This document shows positions 39,375-50,942 of a DNA stretch of 64,000 nt, one piece after another. Position 1 is the first letter of the stretch; every line of letters starts with the position of its first letter. The stretch covers positions 124,001 through 188,000 of the forward strand of contig JAVYUU010000002.1 of NCBI GenBank assembly GCA_038728085.1. Direction: 5' to 3'. The stretch is from Candidatus Bathyarchaeia archaeon (lineage in GTDB: Archaea; Thermoproteota; Bathyarchaeia; Bathyarchaeales; Bathycorpusculaceae). A program made the translations under genes and the position numbers. The notes under the pieces are model-generated. The model saw only the letters and a program-made list of their open reading frames with translations. It did no database searches and had not been told where the DNA came from.

Positions 39375-40343
39375 GTGCAAATGAAAACTGTAGGCGTGGT
39401 TACAAGTGGCGGCGACGCGCCGGGCATGAATGCGGCTATAAGGGCGGTTACACGTTTGGCTTATGCTAGCGGCTTCCAGGTTTTGGGTTTTGAGCGGGGC
39501 TGGGAAGGCTTAATACGGAACCGTTTTAGGCGTTTGGATCCGCGCTCCGTGGGCGGCATAATCCAGACTGGCGGCACAGTTCTTTTGACTTCCCGGTGTC
39601 CAGAATTTAAAACGCCCGAAGGCATTAGAAAAGCTGCTCAAAACTTGGCAGTTAACAATGTGGATGGACTTGTGGTTATTGGTGGCGACGGCTCTTTCCG
39701 GGGTGCCTTAGAGCTTAGCCGTGAAGCAGACACGCTTATTGTTGGGGTGCCAGCCACCATAGACAACGACGTTTATGGCACAGACGAAACCATAGGGTTT
39801 GACACGGCTGTGAACACGGCGGTGGTGGAAATAGACAAAATCCGTGATACGGCGGTATCCCACGAAAGAGTCTTCGTCGTGGAAGTCATGGGCCGCAAAC
39901 GGGGTTTTCTGGCTTTGGCTGTGGGCTTAACCGTCGGCGCCGAAGTAATCCTCGTGCCAGAAGTACCCGTAAACATGGAAGAAGTCTACAAAACCATAAG
40001 GGAGAACGCCGCCAAGGGCAAGCGATCCGGCATAATTGTGGCGGCTGAAGGCGTAGGCGACACAAGAAAAATAGCTAAAGACATAGAGGAAAACACTGGC
40101 GCAGAAGTCCGCCTAAGCATTGTCGGCTATGCGCAAAGAGGCGGAAGCCCAACAGCCAGAAGCCGCCTACTGGCAAACCTATTCGCAGAAGAAGCCGTAC
40201 GCCTGATAACACAAGGCGTTGGAAACCGCGTGGTCGCCTTGCAGAAAGGCACAATCACAAACATAAGCCTACAAGAATCATGCAAAAACCAAAAACAATT
40301 AGACACGAGACTTTTGGAGCTAGCGAAAACACTAGCAACATAA
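39375..40343 (+). CDS. 6-phosphofructokinase, ATP-type signature
   Basis: 322 residues, PfkA fold. The key positions are GGDGS (residues 103-107; Gly at the Escherichia coli 104 site) and PATIDND (126-132; Ala at the 124 site). The 124-site small residue and 104-site Gly leave room for the gamma-phosphate of ATP. The catalytic base region is TIDND with Asp130. Phosphorylates fructose 6-phosphate. A second family member with the opposite signature is at 43509. Start ATG 39375 or 39381. Confidence 0.92.
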   Translation: MQMKTVGVVTSGGDAPGMNAAIRAVTRLAYASGFQVLGFERGWEGLIRNRFRRLDPRSVGGIIQTGGTVLLTSRCPEFKTPEGIRKAAQNLAVNNVDGLVVIGGDGSFRGALELSREADTLIVGVPATIDNDVYGTDETIGFDTAVNTAVVEIDKIRDTAVSHERVFVVEVMGRKRGFLALAVGLTVGAEVILVPEVPVNMEEVYKTIRENAAKGKRSGIIVAAEGVGDTRKIAKDIEENTGAEVRLSIVGYAQRGGSPTARSRLLANLFAEEAVRLITQGVGNRVVALQKGTITNISLQESCKNQKQLDTRLLELAKTLAT

Positions 40344-43508: not shown

Positions 43509-44537
43509 TTAGCCGAAGAATGTGGTGGCTATGTTGTAGAGTTCTAGGTCTACGGTTTTTCTTTTGCCCACCACGTCTTTTAGGGGCACTGGGACTATGC
43601 GGTTTCCTTGGAGGGCTGGCATGTAGCCAAACTTTCCTTCGTGGGCGTAGTCTATGGCTGCTACGCCGTATCTGGTGGCTAGTATGCGGTCGAAGGCTGT
43701 TGGCGAACCGCCCCGCTGCAAATGCCCCAACACGACCACGCGGGTTTCTATGCCTGTGCGCTGTTCTATCTCCTTAGCCAAATAGTAGCCGACTCCGCCT
43801 AGGCTTATGTGGCCGAACTCGTCTATGCGTTCGCTGTAAACGATTTCTTTGCCGCCTTTTGGTTTAGCGCCTTCCGCCACCACGATGAGGCTGAAGTTTC
43901 TGCCCCGCCTCTGCCGGCTTCGAATATACTCGCAGACCTCTTCTATATCAAAGGGCTTTTCTGGAATTAGTATGGCGTCGGCTCCGCCAGCCAATCCAGC
44001 GTATAAGGCAATATGCCCCGTATAGCGGCCCATGACTTCTAGGACTATGACGCGGTTGTGGGCTTCAGCCGTGCTATGCAGCCGGTCAAGGGCTTCCGTG
44101 GCTATGGAAACAGCCGTGTGAAACCCAAAAGTGTAGTCTGTTCCGACTAGGTCATTGTCGATTGTTTTAGGAACACCTACACATTTGAGTCCGTAATCCG
44201 CCATCTTGTGGGCAACGCTTAAAGTGTCGTCTCCGCCTATGGCGATAACCGCGTCCAAACCAGCCTTCTGGGCGTTTTCCATCATCTGTTCTGGCCCCTT
44301 CTCTCGCTTGAAGGGGTTGGTTCTCGAAGTGCCGAGGATGGAGCCGCCACGGGGCAGTATTCCAGCCACAGCGTTTAGGTCTAATGGCATGAAGTTGCCT
44401 TCTAGGAGCCCACGCCACCCATCCTTTATTCCTATTATCTCGTCGCTGTAGGTTTGGATTCCACGTCTTACAACAGCCCTTATAACGGCGTTTATGCCTG
44501 GAGCGTCGCCGCCCCCACTTAAAACGCCAACCTTCAT
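43509..44537 (-). CDS. phosphofructokinase, PPi-type signature
   Basis: 342 residues, PfkA fold starting at ATG 44537 (MKVGVLSGGGDAPG). The open frame continues to 44603, but that extension lacks homology. Diagnostic sites: GGDDT (residues 101-105) with Asp104, and PKTIDND (123-129) with Lys124. Both are the residues used by pyrophosphate-dependent enzymes. It therefore probably uses PPi rather than ATP and is reversible. Begins 19 bases after the class II aldolase gene stop, so fba-pfk is an operon. Confidence 0.93.
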   Translation of the reverse strand: MKVGVLSGGGDAPGINAVIRAVVRRGIQTYSDEIIGIKDGWRGLLEGNFMPLDLNAVAGILPRGGSILGTSRTNPFKREKGPEQMMENAQKAGLDAVIAIGGDDTLSVAHKMADYGLKCVGVPKTIDNDLVGTDYTFGFHTAVSIATEALDRLHSTAEAHNRVIVLEVMGRYTGHIALYAGLAGGADAILIPEKPFDIEEVCEYIRSRQRRGRNFSLIVVAEGAKPKGGKEIVYSERIDEFGHISLGGVGYYLAKEIEQRTGIETRVVVLGHLQRGGSPTAFDRILATRYGVAAIDYAHEGKFGYMPALQGNRIVPVPLKDVVGKRKTVDLELYNIATTFFG

Positions 44538-44556
44538 TCCGCCACCATCCCCACCA

Positions 44557-45474
44557 TTACGCTTTTCCAGAACTTCCAAACAGGCGCATCTTAGCCTTAA
44601 CAACCTCCTTCATGGCCTCCTTCGCCGGACCAAGAATCTTTCTCGGATCAAACTCTTTTGGCGAATTAGCCAGAACCTCACGGACCGTGGCGGTAAACGC
44701 CAACCGCAAGTCCGTGTCAATGTTTATCTTTGTTATGCCAAGCATAATTGCCCTTCTAATATGATCTTCGGGAATACCCTTGGCGCCTGTGAGCTCCGCC
44801 CCATATTTTATGGCCTTCTCTATTATCCATTGGGGGACGCTGGAGGCGCCGTGCAACACCAGCGGCACGTTAACTCTCTCGCGGATAAGCCTAAGCCTCT
44901 CAAAGTCCAGTTGAGGTTCACCCTTAAACTTGTAGGCGCCATGAGAAGTTCCAATAGAAACGGCTAGGGCATCCACACCTGTCCGCTTGACGAACTCCTC
45001 AGCCTCCATGGGGTCTGTTAGGACTGCCTTCCGCTCCTCAACAGTTTTTTCTTCAACGCCAGCAAGCCTTCCAAGCTCACCCTCAACTGAAACTCCCCGT
45101 GCATGGGCAAGCTCAACCACCCGCCTCGTCAAGGCAACGTTCTCCTCGAAGGGCAAATGCGAACCATCAATCATGACGGACGTGAAGCCCGCATCCAAAC
45201 ACTTTTGGACCGTCTCAACATCTTCGCCGTGATCAAGGTGAAGCGACATGGGCACCGGAGAACCCTCAGCCGCCATCCTAACAAGCCCAGCCAAATACCT
45301 CAAACCAGCATACCTTATAGCGCCCGGCGTAACCGCCACAATCACAGGCGAATGCTCCTCAACCGCAGCCTCCACAACAGCCAACAAACCCTCAAGATTT
45401 TGAATATTGAAGGCGCCTACCGCATAGCCTCCCCGCCTAGCAGCCAACAACAACTCCCTATTCGACACAAGCAT
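44557..45474 (-). CDS. fba: class II fructose-bisphosphate aldolase
   Basis: 305 residues. Zn2+-dependent aldolase: Zn-binding His in SLHLDHGED, Asp/His in VMIDGSHLPFEENV, Glu in EGELG, His in GTSHGAYK and HGASSVP. Interconverts FBP with GAP and DHAP. Archaea mostly use class I (DhnA-type) or the bifunctional FBP aldolase/phosphatase, so this bacterial type is notable. Start ATG 45474, with its own TATA box at 45509-45517. Followed by the PPi-type PFK, the partner that makes its substrate. Confidence 0.95.
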   Translation of the reverse strand: MLVSNRELLLAARRGGYAVGAFNIQNLEGLLAVVEAAVEEHSPVIVAVTPGAIRYAGLRYLAGLVRMAAEGSPVPMSLHLDHGEDVETVQKCLDAGFTSVMIDGSHLPFEENVALTRRVVELAHARGVSVEGELGRLAGVEEKTVEERKAVLTDPMEAEEFVKRTGVDALAVSIGTSHGAYKFKGEPQLDFERLRLIRERVNVPLVLHGASSVPQWIIEKAIKYGAELTGAKGIPEDHIRRAIMLGITKINIDTDLRLAFTATVREVLANSPKEFDPRKILGPAKEAMKEVVKAKMRLFGSSGKA

Positions 45475-46211: not shown

Positions 46212-46288
46212 GGCCGAGGTGAGGTAGCCTGGAAGCCTACGGGCCTGTGGAGCCCGGCGCCCGGGTTCAAATCCCGGCCTCGGCCCCA
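46212..46288 (+). tRNA. tRNA-His (GTG)
   Basis: Acceptor GCCGAGG (46213-46219) pairs with CCTCGGC; D stem AGGT/GCCT, anticodon stem CGGGC/GCCCG around loop CTGTGGA (anticodon GTG), T arm CCGGG-TTCAAAT-CCCGG. Discriminator C73 and an encoded CCA (46286-46288). The base at 46212 is G, the G-1 required by HisRS, so it is encoded opposite C73. No intron. Confidence 0.96.
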
Positions 46289-46304: not shown

Positions 46305-47252
46305 TTAAGTGATAAGTTGGATTATTATGAGGGCGGTGATCAGAATGGCCAGTGCCTTGAAGGCTTTGTTGTTGAATTTTTGGGCTTCTTCGACTTTTTT
46401 GGCGTCTACGAGTTTCATTATGTAGACTGATACGGATAGGTTGTAGAGGAATATGGCGTATACGGAGATCATCATTCTATCAGCCATTGTCAGGTAGCCT
46501 ATTGGGGGTATGCCGCTGAGCAGTGAGAGGTGGAAGGCGGATGCCGCCATTAGGGTTGAAACGGCTAGACCTATTCTTTGGCCGAAGTTTTGCGGGGAGA
46601 TGAAGAATGTTAGCAGGGATATTGTCGTTATAACTGATATTGGAAGGACGCTTTTAACGAAGGCTGAGAGCATGGGTCGCCTAAGGTATAGGATGAAGAT
46701 AAACCTTGAATAGGCTTCGTTGCCGTAGGAGTGCTCCATAACGGTTTGCTCGAAGCCTCCTATTTCCCAGCCGGCAACGTTGACTGTTTCGTCTATGGCT
46801 GTTTCCGAGTCTGGCTTAAAGATGAGGTGGGATGCGTTGAGGTTTTTGTGTTCAAGTTCAATGGTGAGGGTGTGGGTTTCAAATGGGTAGCGGGTGAAGT
46901 CGAAGGTTTTTACAAATTCCCCTCTTATGCGATATTCGATGCGGCCTTCTTCCTCGGCGACTATTTCCGGTGTTCGTGTAGGTGCACCATTGACAATCTC
47001 GAAGGCCTTCACAGTATTCGAGTCGATTTCGGATGGGTTAAATTTGAACCACAGGTAAAAGTCTAGGCGGTAGTTGCTGGCGGCCAAATCGATCTTCTCA
47101 ACATTTACAAGCCAGACACCCACGTAGACTTCTGTGGGCTTCGAAACAGTCAATGTTTGCTGGGCTAAGGCTTTCCCAAAGGACAGCAGCGTAAAGACGA
47201 AGACTAAAAGTAAAGCGGTTATAACCAAACCTTTTAGCTGCATAACTTTCAC
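46305..47252 (-). CDS. pentameric ligand-gated ion channel (Pro-loop/Cys-loop receptor) homologue
   Basis: 315 residues. Signal peptide about 1-30, then a beta-rich ligand-binding domain: VYVGVWLVNVEKIDL, DFYLWFKFNPSE and the Pro-loop FDFTRYPFETHTL (117-129) without the bracketing cysteines. Four helices follow: TM1 about 197-217 with Pro204, TM2 226-246 (RIGLAVSTLMAA), the M2-M3 loop PPIGYLTMADRMM, TM3 256-279, TM4 296-313. This architecture is that of GLIC and ELIC. The channel would be a membrane pentamer; ligand unknown. Start GTG 47252, or ATG 47243 with GGTGA upstream. TATA-like ATTTAAAT about 47285. Confidence 0.88.
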   Translation of the reverse strand: MKVMQLKGLVITALLLVFVFTLLSFGKALAQQTLTVSKPTEVYVGVWLVNVEKIDLAASNYRLDFYLWFKFNPSEIDSNTVKAFEIVNGAPTRTPEIVAEEEGRIEYRIRGEFVKTFDFTRYPFETHTLTIELEHKNLNASHLIFKPDSETAIDETVNVAGWEIGGFEQTVMEHSYGNEAYSRFIFILYLRRPMLSAFVKSVLPISVITTISLLTFFISPQNFGQRIGLAVSTLMAASAFHLSLLSGIPPIGYLTMADRMMISVYAIFLYNLSVSVYIMKLVDAKKVEEAQKFNNKAFKALAILITALIIIQLIT

Positions 47253-47299
47253 CGAGAGTTTTCGCCTCTAAAAGACTCAACTATTTAAATTTTGTCAGC

Positions 47300-48346
47300 C
47301 TAGCCGCTGCGAATAGATGACTCAGAAGCCTTCACAGCGTTAACAGTCCTCCTTAAAAGCAGTTGGGCAGCCTCCTGATTCGGCCATCCGCCAAGTCCAC
47401 AGTCCGGGCCTGTGAAAGCTAGCCTTTCTCCGAATTTTGCCCTTGCTTTTTCAAGGCGCCTTCTAATGGTTTCCTCGTCCTCCACCATCTGCCAGGCTTG
47501 CGGTTTCCTTACGCCTTTCTCATAAAGCTCCGCTAGGATGGCGTCTACGTCTGTTCGAGCTATGCCGACTCGAATGTGCTTATCCGCCCTTTCCAGCATA
47601 TCCTTTGATAAAGCCTCCAGATTTCTCGGGGAAGCAGCGTACTCCACTGAAACCACATCCAAGTTTTTAACTTCCAAGAGCTCAACCACCCTTGATGTGG
47701 AGTGAACGTGAATCTGCTTTACCGCCCCGCTGAAGCTGAAGGCTTTCTCAAAAACTTCTAGGACTAGGTCCCTATCAGCCGCTACGTCATGAAAGCCGAA
47801 ACTAGGCTCGTCCAGGGAAACCATTTCGGTTCTAACATACTTGTTGTTTAAGAGGGAATTAGCAGCGAACCTCCGCACCGTCTCGGCAAACATCAACAGA
47901 ATATCCCGGTAAGCGGCGGTTCCAACCAATGCAAGGTAAAGCTCAAAAGGACCCGTCACGCATACGCGGAGGGCAATTCTCGCTATGCCAAGCTCCTCGC
48001 ATAGCTGTTTGGCTTCGCTTCTGATAACAGAGACTTCCGGGATAACTGCGGCCTTCTCGTCAACAATATATGTGCCTTTTTCCATGGCTTTATGGATAAC
48101 CTCTGTAAACTGGCGGCGAATATCATAGTGCTGGGGGTAATTGACAACGTCTAAGCCGGCCTCGCACTTCAGTCTAAACGAAGCCCTAACCACGACATAG
48201 AAATTCCTAAAGAGAAAATTGTCCTCGGCTATGTTTCTGCCATCAGCCGCCCATTCCCTAGCCACGGCATAAGCTTTCTCAAAGTCTCTACGCTCCACAG
48301 ATGGGGGCAGTGGAAAACTTCCAATGTCGTCGACAAGCACACGCAT
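47300..48346 (-). CDS. core methionine synthase-like protein (MetE C-domain family)
   Basis: 348 residues from ATG 48346, which lies about 25 bases downstream of a TATA box (ATTATAAAG, 48369-48377 complement), so it is leaderless. The UROD/MetE barrel family is seen in LDEPSFGFHD (near residue 170), KQIHVHSTS, and FTGPDCGLGGWPN at the C-terminus. In methionine synthases zinc is held by His, Cys, Glu and Cys; here the C-x-D segment GPDCGL is present while the usual H-x-C is HVH. A methyl transfer role on homocysteine or another thiol is inferred. The N-terminal frame beyond ATG is untranslated extension. Confidence 0.8.
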   Translation of the reverse strand: MRVLVDDIGSFPLPPSVERRDFEKAYAVAREWAADGRNIAEDNFLFRNFYVVVRASFRLKCEAGLDVVNYPQHYDIRRQFTEVIHKAMEKGTYIVDEKAAVIPEVSVIRSEAKQLCEELGIARIALRVCVTGPFELYLALVGTAAYRDILLMFAETVRRFAANSLLNNKYVRTEMVSLDEPSFGFHDVAADRDLVLEVFEKAFSFSGAVKQIHVHSTSRVVELLEVKNLDVVSVEYAASPRNLEALSKDMLERADKHIRVGIARTDVDAILAELYEKGVRKPQAWQMVEDEETIRRRLEKARAKFGERLAFTGPDCGLGGWPNQEAAQLLLRRTVNAVKASESSIRSG

Positions 48347-48368
48347 GACGAAGACTATTTCGCCAAAA

Positions 48369-48421
48369 ATTATAAAGCTACCTTTAAAGTCGGTGAATGG
48401 ACACGTAAAGCCTATATAAGC
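48369..48421. promoter_or_regulatory. divergent promoter pair for the MetE-like gene and htpX
   Basis: Minus strand CTTTATAAT (about 48377-48369) for the MetE-like gene (leaderless at 48346) and plus strand CTATATAAG (48412-48420) for htpX, about 40 bases apart. Confidence 0.55.
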
Positions 48422-48451
48422 GGCTCCGTTGTTGAACACGTGAGGGTTAAC

Positions 48452-49486: not shown

Positions 49487-50182
49487 ATGAAGTTGACCTC
49501 CCAGATAATCGCAGAAGCCGCCAAAGAAAATAGAAAATACCTAATGGAGAATGAGGCGAAAACCATATGCATGGAGTATGGCATACCCGTGACGAAGTTT
49601 AAACTCGCCAAAAGCGAGGCTGAAGCCGTTAAAGCCGCAGAGGAGATAGGCTTCCCCGTTGTTTTAAAGATAGTTTCGCCGGACATAATCCACAAGTCAG
49701 ACGTCGGCGGGGTCATGTTAAACCTGAAGGACGTCAGGGAGGTTAAAGCCGCCTACAGGCAGATAATGGAAAACGTCAAGAAACACAAGGGAGACGCGAA
49801 AATAGTCGGCGTAATAGTTCAGGAAATGGCTCAGCCATCCACAGAGGTCATAGTTGGCGCCATAAAAGATCCCCAGTTCGGCCCAACTTTAATGTTCGGC
49901 CTCGGCGGAGTCTTCGTGGAGGTTTTGAAGGACGTCACCTTCAGAATAGCGCCAATAACCGAGGAGGAAGCCCGTGAAATGATCACCGAGATTAAGGCTT
50001 ACCCCCTGCTTAAGGGTTATAGAAACCTGCCACCCGCCGACATAGGAGCAATAGCCAAGATTTTAGTTAATACCTCCAAGCTTGTGATGGAGCATCCGGA
50101 AATAAGGGAGCTTGACCTTAACCCAATCATGGTTTACGAGAAGGGCGCAAAAACCGTGGATGCAAGGATCATCCTTGAATAG
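49487..50182 (+). CDS. acdB: acetyl-CoA/acyl-CoA synthetase (ADP-forming), beta subunit
   Basis: 231 residues, ATP-grasp fold, the same length as Pyrococcus ACD beta. Family sequences: ENEAKTICMEYGIPVTKFKL, FPVVLKIVSPDIIHKSDVGGV, and LDLNPIMVYEKGAKTVDARI. It makes ATP and acetate from acetyl-CoA with an alpha subunit that is not in the window. TATA CTTAAATAA at about 49440. Overlaps the next gene's start. Confidence 0.92.
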   Translation: MKLTSQIIAEAAKENRKYLMENEAKTICMEYGIPVTKFKLAKSEAEAVKAAEEIGFPVVLKIVSPDIIHKSDVGGVMLNLKDVREVKAAYRQIMENVKKHKGDAKIVGVIVQEMAQPSTEVIVGAIKDPQFGPTLMFGLGGVFVEVLKDVTFRIAPITEEEAREMITEIKAYPLLKGYRNLPPADIGAIAKILVNTSKLVMEHPEIRELDLNPIMVYEKGAKTVDARIILE

Positions 50183-50942
50183 CCTTGAAGACCTAGCTAG
50201 AAACGAGATTTTCTCAAGAACGTCAATCCCCCATGGGGCGAGCTTCTTTGTAAGGCTTGACGGGTGGAAATTCAGGAAACTCTCAGAGGCCATTGGTGCT
50301 GAGAAACCCTTTGATGAAAGAATTGCAAAATGCCTGGTTCACTCGGGCAGGATGCTATTCGAAAAGGGGTTCAATCCAGCCCTACTTTACACGGTAAGCG
50401 ATGAGTTAAACATCCTATTCATGAATTGGACGCCATTCCATGGGAGGATAGAGAAAATAGACTCAATAATGCCCAGCCTAGTTTCAGCAGCCTTCACCCT
50501 GCACCTCCAAAGCTTTTTTGGGAAAGCAGCCGCAGCGGCCTTCGACTCAAGGATCATTATAACGGCAAACGAAGACAGCGTAATCAAGTATTTGGCTTGG
50601 AGGCAAATCAACGCTTGGAGAAATCACAACAACGCCTATGCCTACAATCTTTTCAGGAAAATGGGCTACAAACCACGGGAAATAGCCAGAAAATTGAAGG
50701 GGCTAAAAACGGAAGAGATCCACGAAATCCTATTTAGGCATGGAATAAACTTGGCTGAAACGCCGCCATGGCAGAGAAGGGGGATCCTTCTATACAAGGA
50801 ACCCGTCCACAGGAAGGTTGGAGGGAGAGAAGTGATCCGATGGAAACTTAAGGAGAATTGGGACTTGCCGCTCTTCACGAGGGAAGAGGGAACGAAATTA
50901 ATCCAGAAAATTCTCGAATGGATGAAGCAAAGGAGAGACTAA
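50160..50942 (+). CDS. thg1: tRNA(His) guanylyltransferase / Thg1-like protein
   Basis: About 260 residues. Thg1 motifs: FFVRLDGWKFRKLSE (Asp34, first metal Asp), KPFDERIAKCL, YTVSDELNILF (Ser80-Asp81-Glu82), and WRQINAWRNHNNAYAYNL with FRKMGYKPREIARKLKG. Thg1-family enzymes add nucleotides to the 5' end of tRNA in the 3'-5' direction. Archaeal Thg1-like proteins repair 5'-truncated tRNAs. Start: the frame opens at 50112 within acdB; ATG 50160 gives a natural N-terminus, TTG 50175 is possible. See the tRNA-His entry: G-1 is already encoded. Confidence 0.92.
   Translation: MQGSSLNSLEDLARNEIFSRTSIPHGASFFVRLDGWKFRKLSEAIGAEKPFDERIAKCLVHSGRMLFEKGFNPALLYTVSDELNILFMNWTPFHGRIEKIDSIMPSLVSAAFTLHLQSFFGKAAAAAFDSRIIITANEDSVIKYLAWRQINAWRNHNNAYAYNLFRKMGYKPREIARKLKGLKTEEIHEILFRHGINLAETPPWQRRGILLYKEPVHRKVGGREVIRWKLKENWDLPLFTREEGTKLIQKILEWMKQRRD

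Follow-up and report, generated by a model that had tools for sequence, protein, structure and literature searches.

A predicted pentameric ligand-gated ion channel with a neutral pore filter in a member of Candidatus Bathyarchaeota

Gene locus and protein architecture

Inspection of the window, i.e., the whole 64,000-nucleotide stretch of DNA analyzed here, revealed a gene for a predicted pentameric ligand-gated ion channel (pLGIC). The respective open reading frame on the minus strand encodes 315 amino acids from a GTG codon, is free of internal stops, and occupies positions 46305 to 47252, exactly as the preliminary description had it. Only the start was refined: ATG 47243 is likelier to be used than GTG 47252, since the GTG overlaps a Shine-Dalgarno-like GGTGA and since this element and a TATA-like box further upstream have counterparts in three relatives (L022 to L024), which carry a TTAAATA-like sequence at the equivalent place and retain GGTG ahead of the start. 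Residue numbers throughout follow the 315-amino-acid numbering counted from GTG 47252. The following features were assigned:

46305..47243, minus strand: pLGIC (Pro-loop receptor) gene, 312 amino acids from ATG 47243; GTG 47252 would add three codons
47282..47289, minus strand: TATA-like box TTTAAATA, 39 to 46 nt 5' of ATG 47243
47249..47253, minus strand: Shine-Dalgarno-like GGTGA preceding ATG 47243
47163..47243, minus strand: signal peptide MQLKGLVITALLLVFVFTLLSFGKALA, residues 4 to 30, assigned by inspection (AlphaFold helix 2 to 32)
46677..47162, minus strand: extracellular beta-sandwich, the ligand-domain equivalent, residues 31 to 192 (profile, AlphaFold, Foldseek)
46878..46889, minus strand: Pro-loop YPFE, residues 122 to 125, with E where D is usual
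46599..46673, minus strand: M1 helix, residues 194 to 218, with kink proline P204 and with R192 just before it
46518..46586, minus strand: M2 pore helix, residues 223 to 245
46575..46583, minus strand: filter residues G-2' Q-1' R0', residues 224 to 226, without an acidic ring
46488..46517, minus strand: M2-M3 loop SGIPPIGYLT, residues 246 to 255, with conserved P249
46404..46487, minus strand: M3 helix, residues 256 to 283 (AlphaFold)
46311..46394, minus strand: M4 helix, residues 287 to 314, following M3 after a short linker without an intracellular domain (AlphaFold)

The signal peptide, beta domain, and four helices that had been read from the sequence all reappear in an AlphaFold model of the monomer, which has moderate confidence (pLDDT of 73.5, pTM of 0.53, TM-score of about 0.59) and in which a signal helix and a beta-sandwich precede the four helices. 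The motifs named alongside them were also found, namely FDFTRYPFETHTL at residues 117 to 129, P204, and PPIGYLTMADRMM at residues 249 to 261. The whole protein contains no cysteine, and the Cys-loop cysteine pair is therefore absent. Thus, the assignment to the Pro-loop receptors holds for the predicted protein, while, strictly speaking, it is not a Cys-loop receptor.

The gene appears to be monocistronic with a promoter-like site of its own. No operon partner is kept across the wider locus set, but only among the closest relatives. Neighboring genes for a methionine-synthase-like protein, an M48 protease, and a DUF373 protein were rejected as partners, being common to three close relatives only. 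An ABC-ATPase cluster recurs at seven loci in varying distance and orientation and was judged an artifact of a common family. The methionine-synthase-like protein (47300 to 48439, minus strand), encoded upstream of the channel gene, is divergent and scores 251 bits, where the cut-off is 387.

Elsewhere in the window, a tRNA-His gene (46213 to 46288, plus strand) and a Thg1-family (tRNA-His guanylyltransferase) gene (50112 to 50942, plus strand) are 4 kb apart. As a G is encoded at position 46212, directly before the tRNA, G-1 addition may not be needed. Furthermore, a class II fructose-bisphosphate aldolase gene has two phosphofructokinase-like genes in its vicinity (39375 to 40343, plus strand; 43509 to 44603 and 44557 to 45474, both minus strand). 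The second of the pair has a Pfam PFK match and the first was judged by its similar sequence; together with the class II aldolase, they form an unusual glycolytic set for an archaeon.

Superfamily membership, distribution, and evolution

Pfam searches with the single sequence matched Neur_chan_memb (E = 3.9e-5) and Neur_chan_LBD (E = 0.0033), both under the curated cut-offs, and TIGR00860 was matched under its cut-off at E = 9.7e-18. A phmmer search of solved structures found GLIC at E = 4.2e-14, and a profile of the 37-row family aligned with GLIC at E = 2.5e-32, covering GLIC residues 13 to 306. Foldseek, queried with the AlphaFold monomer, returned GLIC, GlyR alpha2, GABA-A, and sTeLIC with a probability of 1.00 and TM-scores of about 0.5 to 0.6 (E = 3.9e-18). 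AlphaFold, Foldseek, and the profile agree on a ligand domain built as a beta-sandwich with four transmembrane helices after it, as is characteristic of the superfamily. Since the matches extend over both the ligand and the membrane domains, the proposed homology withstood the structural and profile search that had been set as its refuting test.

The signature residues most conserved across the superfamily (Table 1 of PMC4795631) are present as Y122, P123, E125, W162, R192, P204, and P249. The F/Y-P-x-D motif of the beta6-beta7 loop, with its invariant proline, reads YPFE at residues 122 to 125, D-to-E being a listed 3% substitution (PMC4795631). The beta9 aromatic residue W162, R192 ahead of M1, P204 in M1, and P249 in the M2-M3 loop each occur in 37/37 aligned rows. 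M2 has R226 at 0' and Met at 9', where 19 of the 37 rows have Leu; a basic residue at 0' and Leu (or Phe) at 9' are majority, non-universal features of the superfamily. Judged by sequence and modeled fold, the protein is a genuine pLGIC relative and kin of the animal neurotransmitter-receptor channels, with predicted channel activity.

The host genome (1.43 Mb, 97.7% complete) encodes a reverse gyrase (1,330 bits), an enzyme that in Bathyarchaeia has been reported only from thermal families (PMC8407382), and the host is probably heat-loving. The archaeal origin of the sequence fits its 12 named relatives (54 to 84% identity), which all belong to Candidatus Bathyarchaeota. The gene is present in 29 of 91 genomes of the host's family, with broken copies in others, in 37 of 257 genomes of the class, and in 36 of 398 genomes sampled from the phylum. 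Fourteen phylum members bearing more distant pLGIC copies carry archaeal AmoA and are on that account classed as ammonia oxidizers, matching the Thaumarchaeota clade described previously (PMC4795631). Pfam Neur_chan_LBD was discarded as a survey tool; it had zero matches in the 398 genomes, known carriers included, so that its absence is uninformative.

The description of such receptors as rare in archaea stands only in relative terms: apart from the 37 class genomes, they were reported from Methanosarcina in 2004 (PMC549065) and from 10 further archaeal genera, Thaumarchaeota included, in 2016 (PMC4795631). A search for "Bathyarch-" together with "ligand-gated ion channel" gave no report in the open-access literature, subscription journals and protein databases being outside its scope. 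What is new is the lineage, the kind of protein being already known.

A tree of 49 rows places the window sequence within a group of 24 rows (support of 83/94). Nested inside this group are copies from two genomes outside the class and without AmoA, G304 (L062/L076) and G421 (L063/L077), with sister groupings supported at 98/93 and 100/99; the contigs bearing them measure 266 and 435 kb. These nested, well-supported positions indicate lateral transfer as the probable origin of both sets of copies, leaving mis-binning a small residual chance. G330, which belongs to the same genus as G421, has only a decayed copy (L064), which together with the nested copies points to probable transfer and loss. 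Candidate sources were rejected: no phage match and no relative among viral contigs was found, and plasmids yielded only bacterial pLGICs of about 25% identity. GLIC and the Azospirillum and Streptomyces proteins sit on very long branches of the tree, and a placement among bacterial pLGICs is not claimed.

Some Bathyarchaeota possess another group of pLGICs, which is far more divergent and has a longer M1-M2 linker (L020, L074, L075, L099, and L100). The three members compared (L020, L074, and L075) are 22 to 24% identical to the window protein. One genome (G029) carries both kinds. In two Bathyarchaeota pLGICs from different genera (L015/L048/L090 in G004 and L031/L049/L087 in G163), YQFE replaces YPFE, so that they lack the proline described as the one residue conserved without exception in the superfamily (PMC4795631). 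Sequencing error is unlikely, since the YQFE pair forms one supported clade (100/96).

For close orthologues, dN/dS values of 0.045 to 0.13 were obtained (NG86), with dS near or at saturation, and point to strong purifying selection. The overall pattern is that of a functional gene that is dispensable and movable.

Pore filter, gating, and proposed function

Examination of the pore-lining M2 residues, as had been recommended, identified the filter as G-2' Q-1' R0'. Across the alignment of 37 archaeal rows, position -2' is G, A, S, or T and position -1' is Q, M, A, P, L, S, or I; an acidic residue at either position occurs in 0/37 rows (G224 and Q225 in the window protein), and R0' is kept in 36/37. 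The literature distinguishes a cation motif E-[RK] from an anion motif A-[RK] (PMC549065), and Q at -1' is of neither type. The anion motif P-A-R (-2' to 0') is also absent, G-Q-R having only R0' in common with it, and the predicted filter is neither cation type nor classic anion type. The best M2 matches were nAChR alpha7 (cation) as well as GABA-A and GlyR (anion). As nAChR alpha7 and GABA-A score alike, overall M2 likeness does not discriminate, and only the filter residues were used for selectivity. Because the filter is neutral at -2'/-1' and has R at 0', we lean, from the filter alone, toward a pore that is permeable to anions or weakly selective.

Anion-permeable prokaryotic pores were predicted from sequence in 2004 (PMC549065), and the neutral filter offers a direct test case. 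Tentatively, and at somewhat below even odds, the archaeal pLGICs of this branch may be anion-permeable, with a Q-R filter replacing P-A-R outside the animal Cys-loop clade. If true, an anion-type pore exists in prokaryotes beyond that clade.

The protein could instead be a pLGIC that selects for cations, as GLIC and ELIC do, its selectivity being set by acidic residues outside -2'/-1', in the vestibule or the lateral portals. Such a channel would conform to the prokaryotic channels described in the cited literature, which are classed as cation channels, and to the nearest solved sequences, GLIC and sTeLIC. However, every known cation-selective pLGIC is reported to have acidic rings at -2'/-1' (PMC9897478), and their absence from every archaeal row makes cation selectivity unlikely, albeit with an appreciable chance.

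Candidate residues for mutagenesis in the ligand domain are D64, N88, and E134, present in 37/37 rows, and H174 and Y176, present in 34/37. In the profile alignment, E26, E35, and H235 of GLIC, which we take to be its proton-sensing residues, correspond to N50, S59, and A237, and its E222 to G224. As the three proton-sensing residues are not conserved at the aligned positions, GLIC-type proton gating is unlikely.

Jointly, the best explanation is a Bathyarchaeota pLGIC that is anion-permeable or weakly selective, is not proton-gated in the manner of GLIC, and acts as a solute-triggered conductance, to which we assign a probability of about 0.62. Five copies would assemble in the cell membrane as one channel whose beta-sandwich domains face outside; pentamer assembly and gating are taken from homology here, because the structural model is a monomer of moderate confidence. 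A small extracellular solute would bind between subunits, contact of the Pro-loop and R192 with the M2-M3 loop would relay the signal to the pore, and a hydrophobic gate at M2 9'-16' would open. The pore, neutral at -2'/-1' and with arginine at 0', would most likely pass anions or be weakly selective, in which it would differ from GLIC and ELIC, both cation-selective. To the cell, the channel would probably serve as a solute-triggered conductance that it can afford to lose.

A receptor with a pLGIC fold might also signal by ligand binding without conducting ions. This would agree with the loss of the superfamily's only invariant proline in two relatives and with the state of knowledge in 2016, when not one pLGIC from a unicellular organism had a recognized biological role (PMC4795631). 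Yet conservation is among the highest in the M2-M3 loop and at M2 6' (S/T), 9' (mostly M/L), and 16' (L), as would be expected of a working pore, and a non-conducting receptor is quite improbable. Still further down stands a sensor channel of a chemotaxis pathway, proposed in 2004 for prokaryotic members (PMC549065). CheW was found in 9 of 29 pLGIC-bearing versus 7 of 62 pLGIC-free genomes of the family (Fisher P = 0.036, without correction for kinship or completeness), but 20 of the 29 carriers have none, and its absence from the window's own 97.7% complete genome makes the link very improbable for this host. Finally, a chance likeness of an unrelated membrane protein, to which the Pfam scores under the cut-offs might point, is refuted by the profile match over both domains, the Foldseek probability, the signature residues, and the 54 to 84% identical orthologues in many genomes with dN/dS of about 0.05 to 0.1.

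Fast synaptic transmission relies on pLGICs as its receptors. With its good conservation and a host that encodes reverse gyrase, the archaeal family lends itself to structure determination and electrophysiology.

Comparison with known systems

The window protein shares with GLIC, the proton-gated pLGIC of Gloeobacter violaceus, the two-domain architecture, the short M3-M4 linker, and the lack of Cys-loop cysteines, whereas identity is only about 20% and E26, E35, H235, and the filter residue E222 of GLIC are not conserved. The Thaumarchaeota clade (Jaiteh et al. 2016, PMC4795631) is likewise archaeal and single-domain, with a similar M2 stretch around R0'; homologues 36 to 42% identical to the window protein lie in AmoA-positive genomes. 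It differs in forming separate tree branches, in having A, S, P, or Q at -1' where the window family has mainly Q, and in AmoA, which is absent from the window's genome. The Methanosarcina proteins (Tasneem et al. 2004, PMC549065), compared by description only, are archaeal pLGICs as well, but one form is fused to MCP-N and Cache sensor domains, while the window protein consists of signal peptide, ligand domain, and channel only. sTeLIC, DeCLIC, and ELIC are bacterial pLGICs of the same fold, sTeLIC being the best PDB sequence match for the M1-M3 segment (E = 2.2e-7). In contrast to the window protein, DeCLIC carries an additional N-terminal domain and two rings of acidic residues, and ELIC has E-1'. 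Compared with the animal GlyR and GABA-A receptors, the window protein is without the Cys-loop cysteines, Pro at -2', and the intracellular domain, but it has the fold, the neutral -1', and R0' in common with them, and its M2 resembles that of GABA-A beta3.
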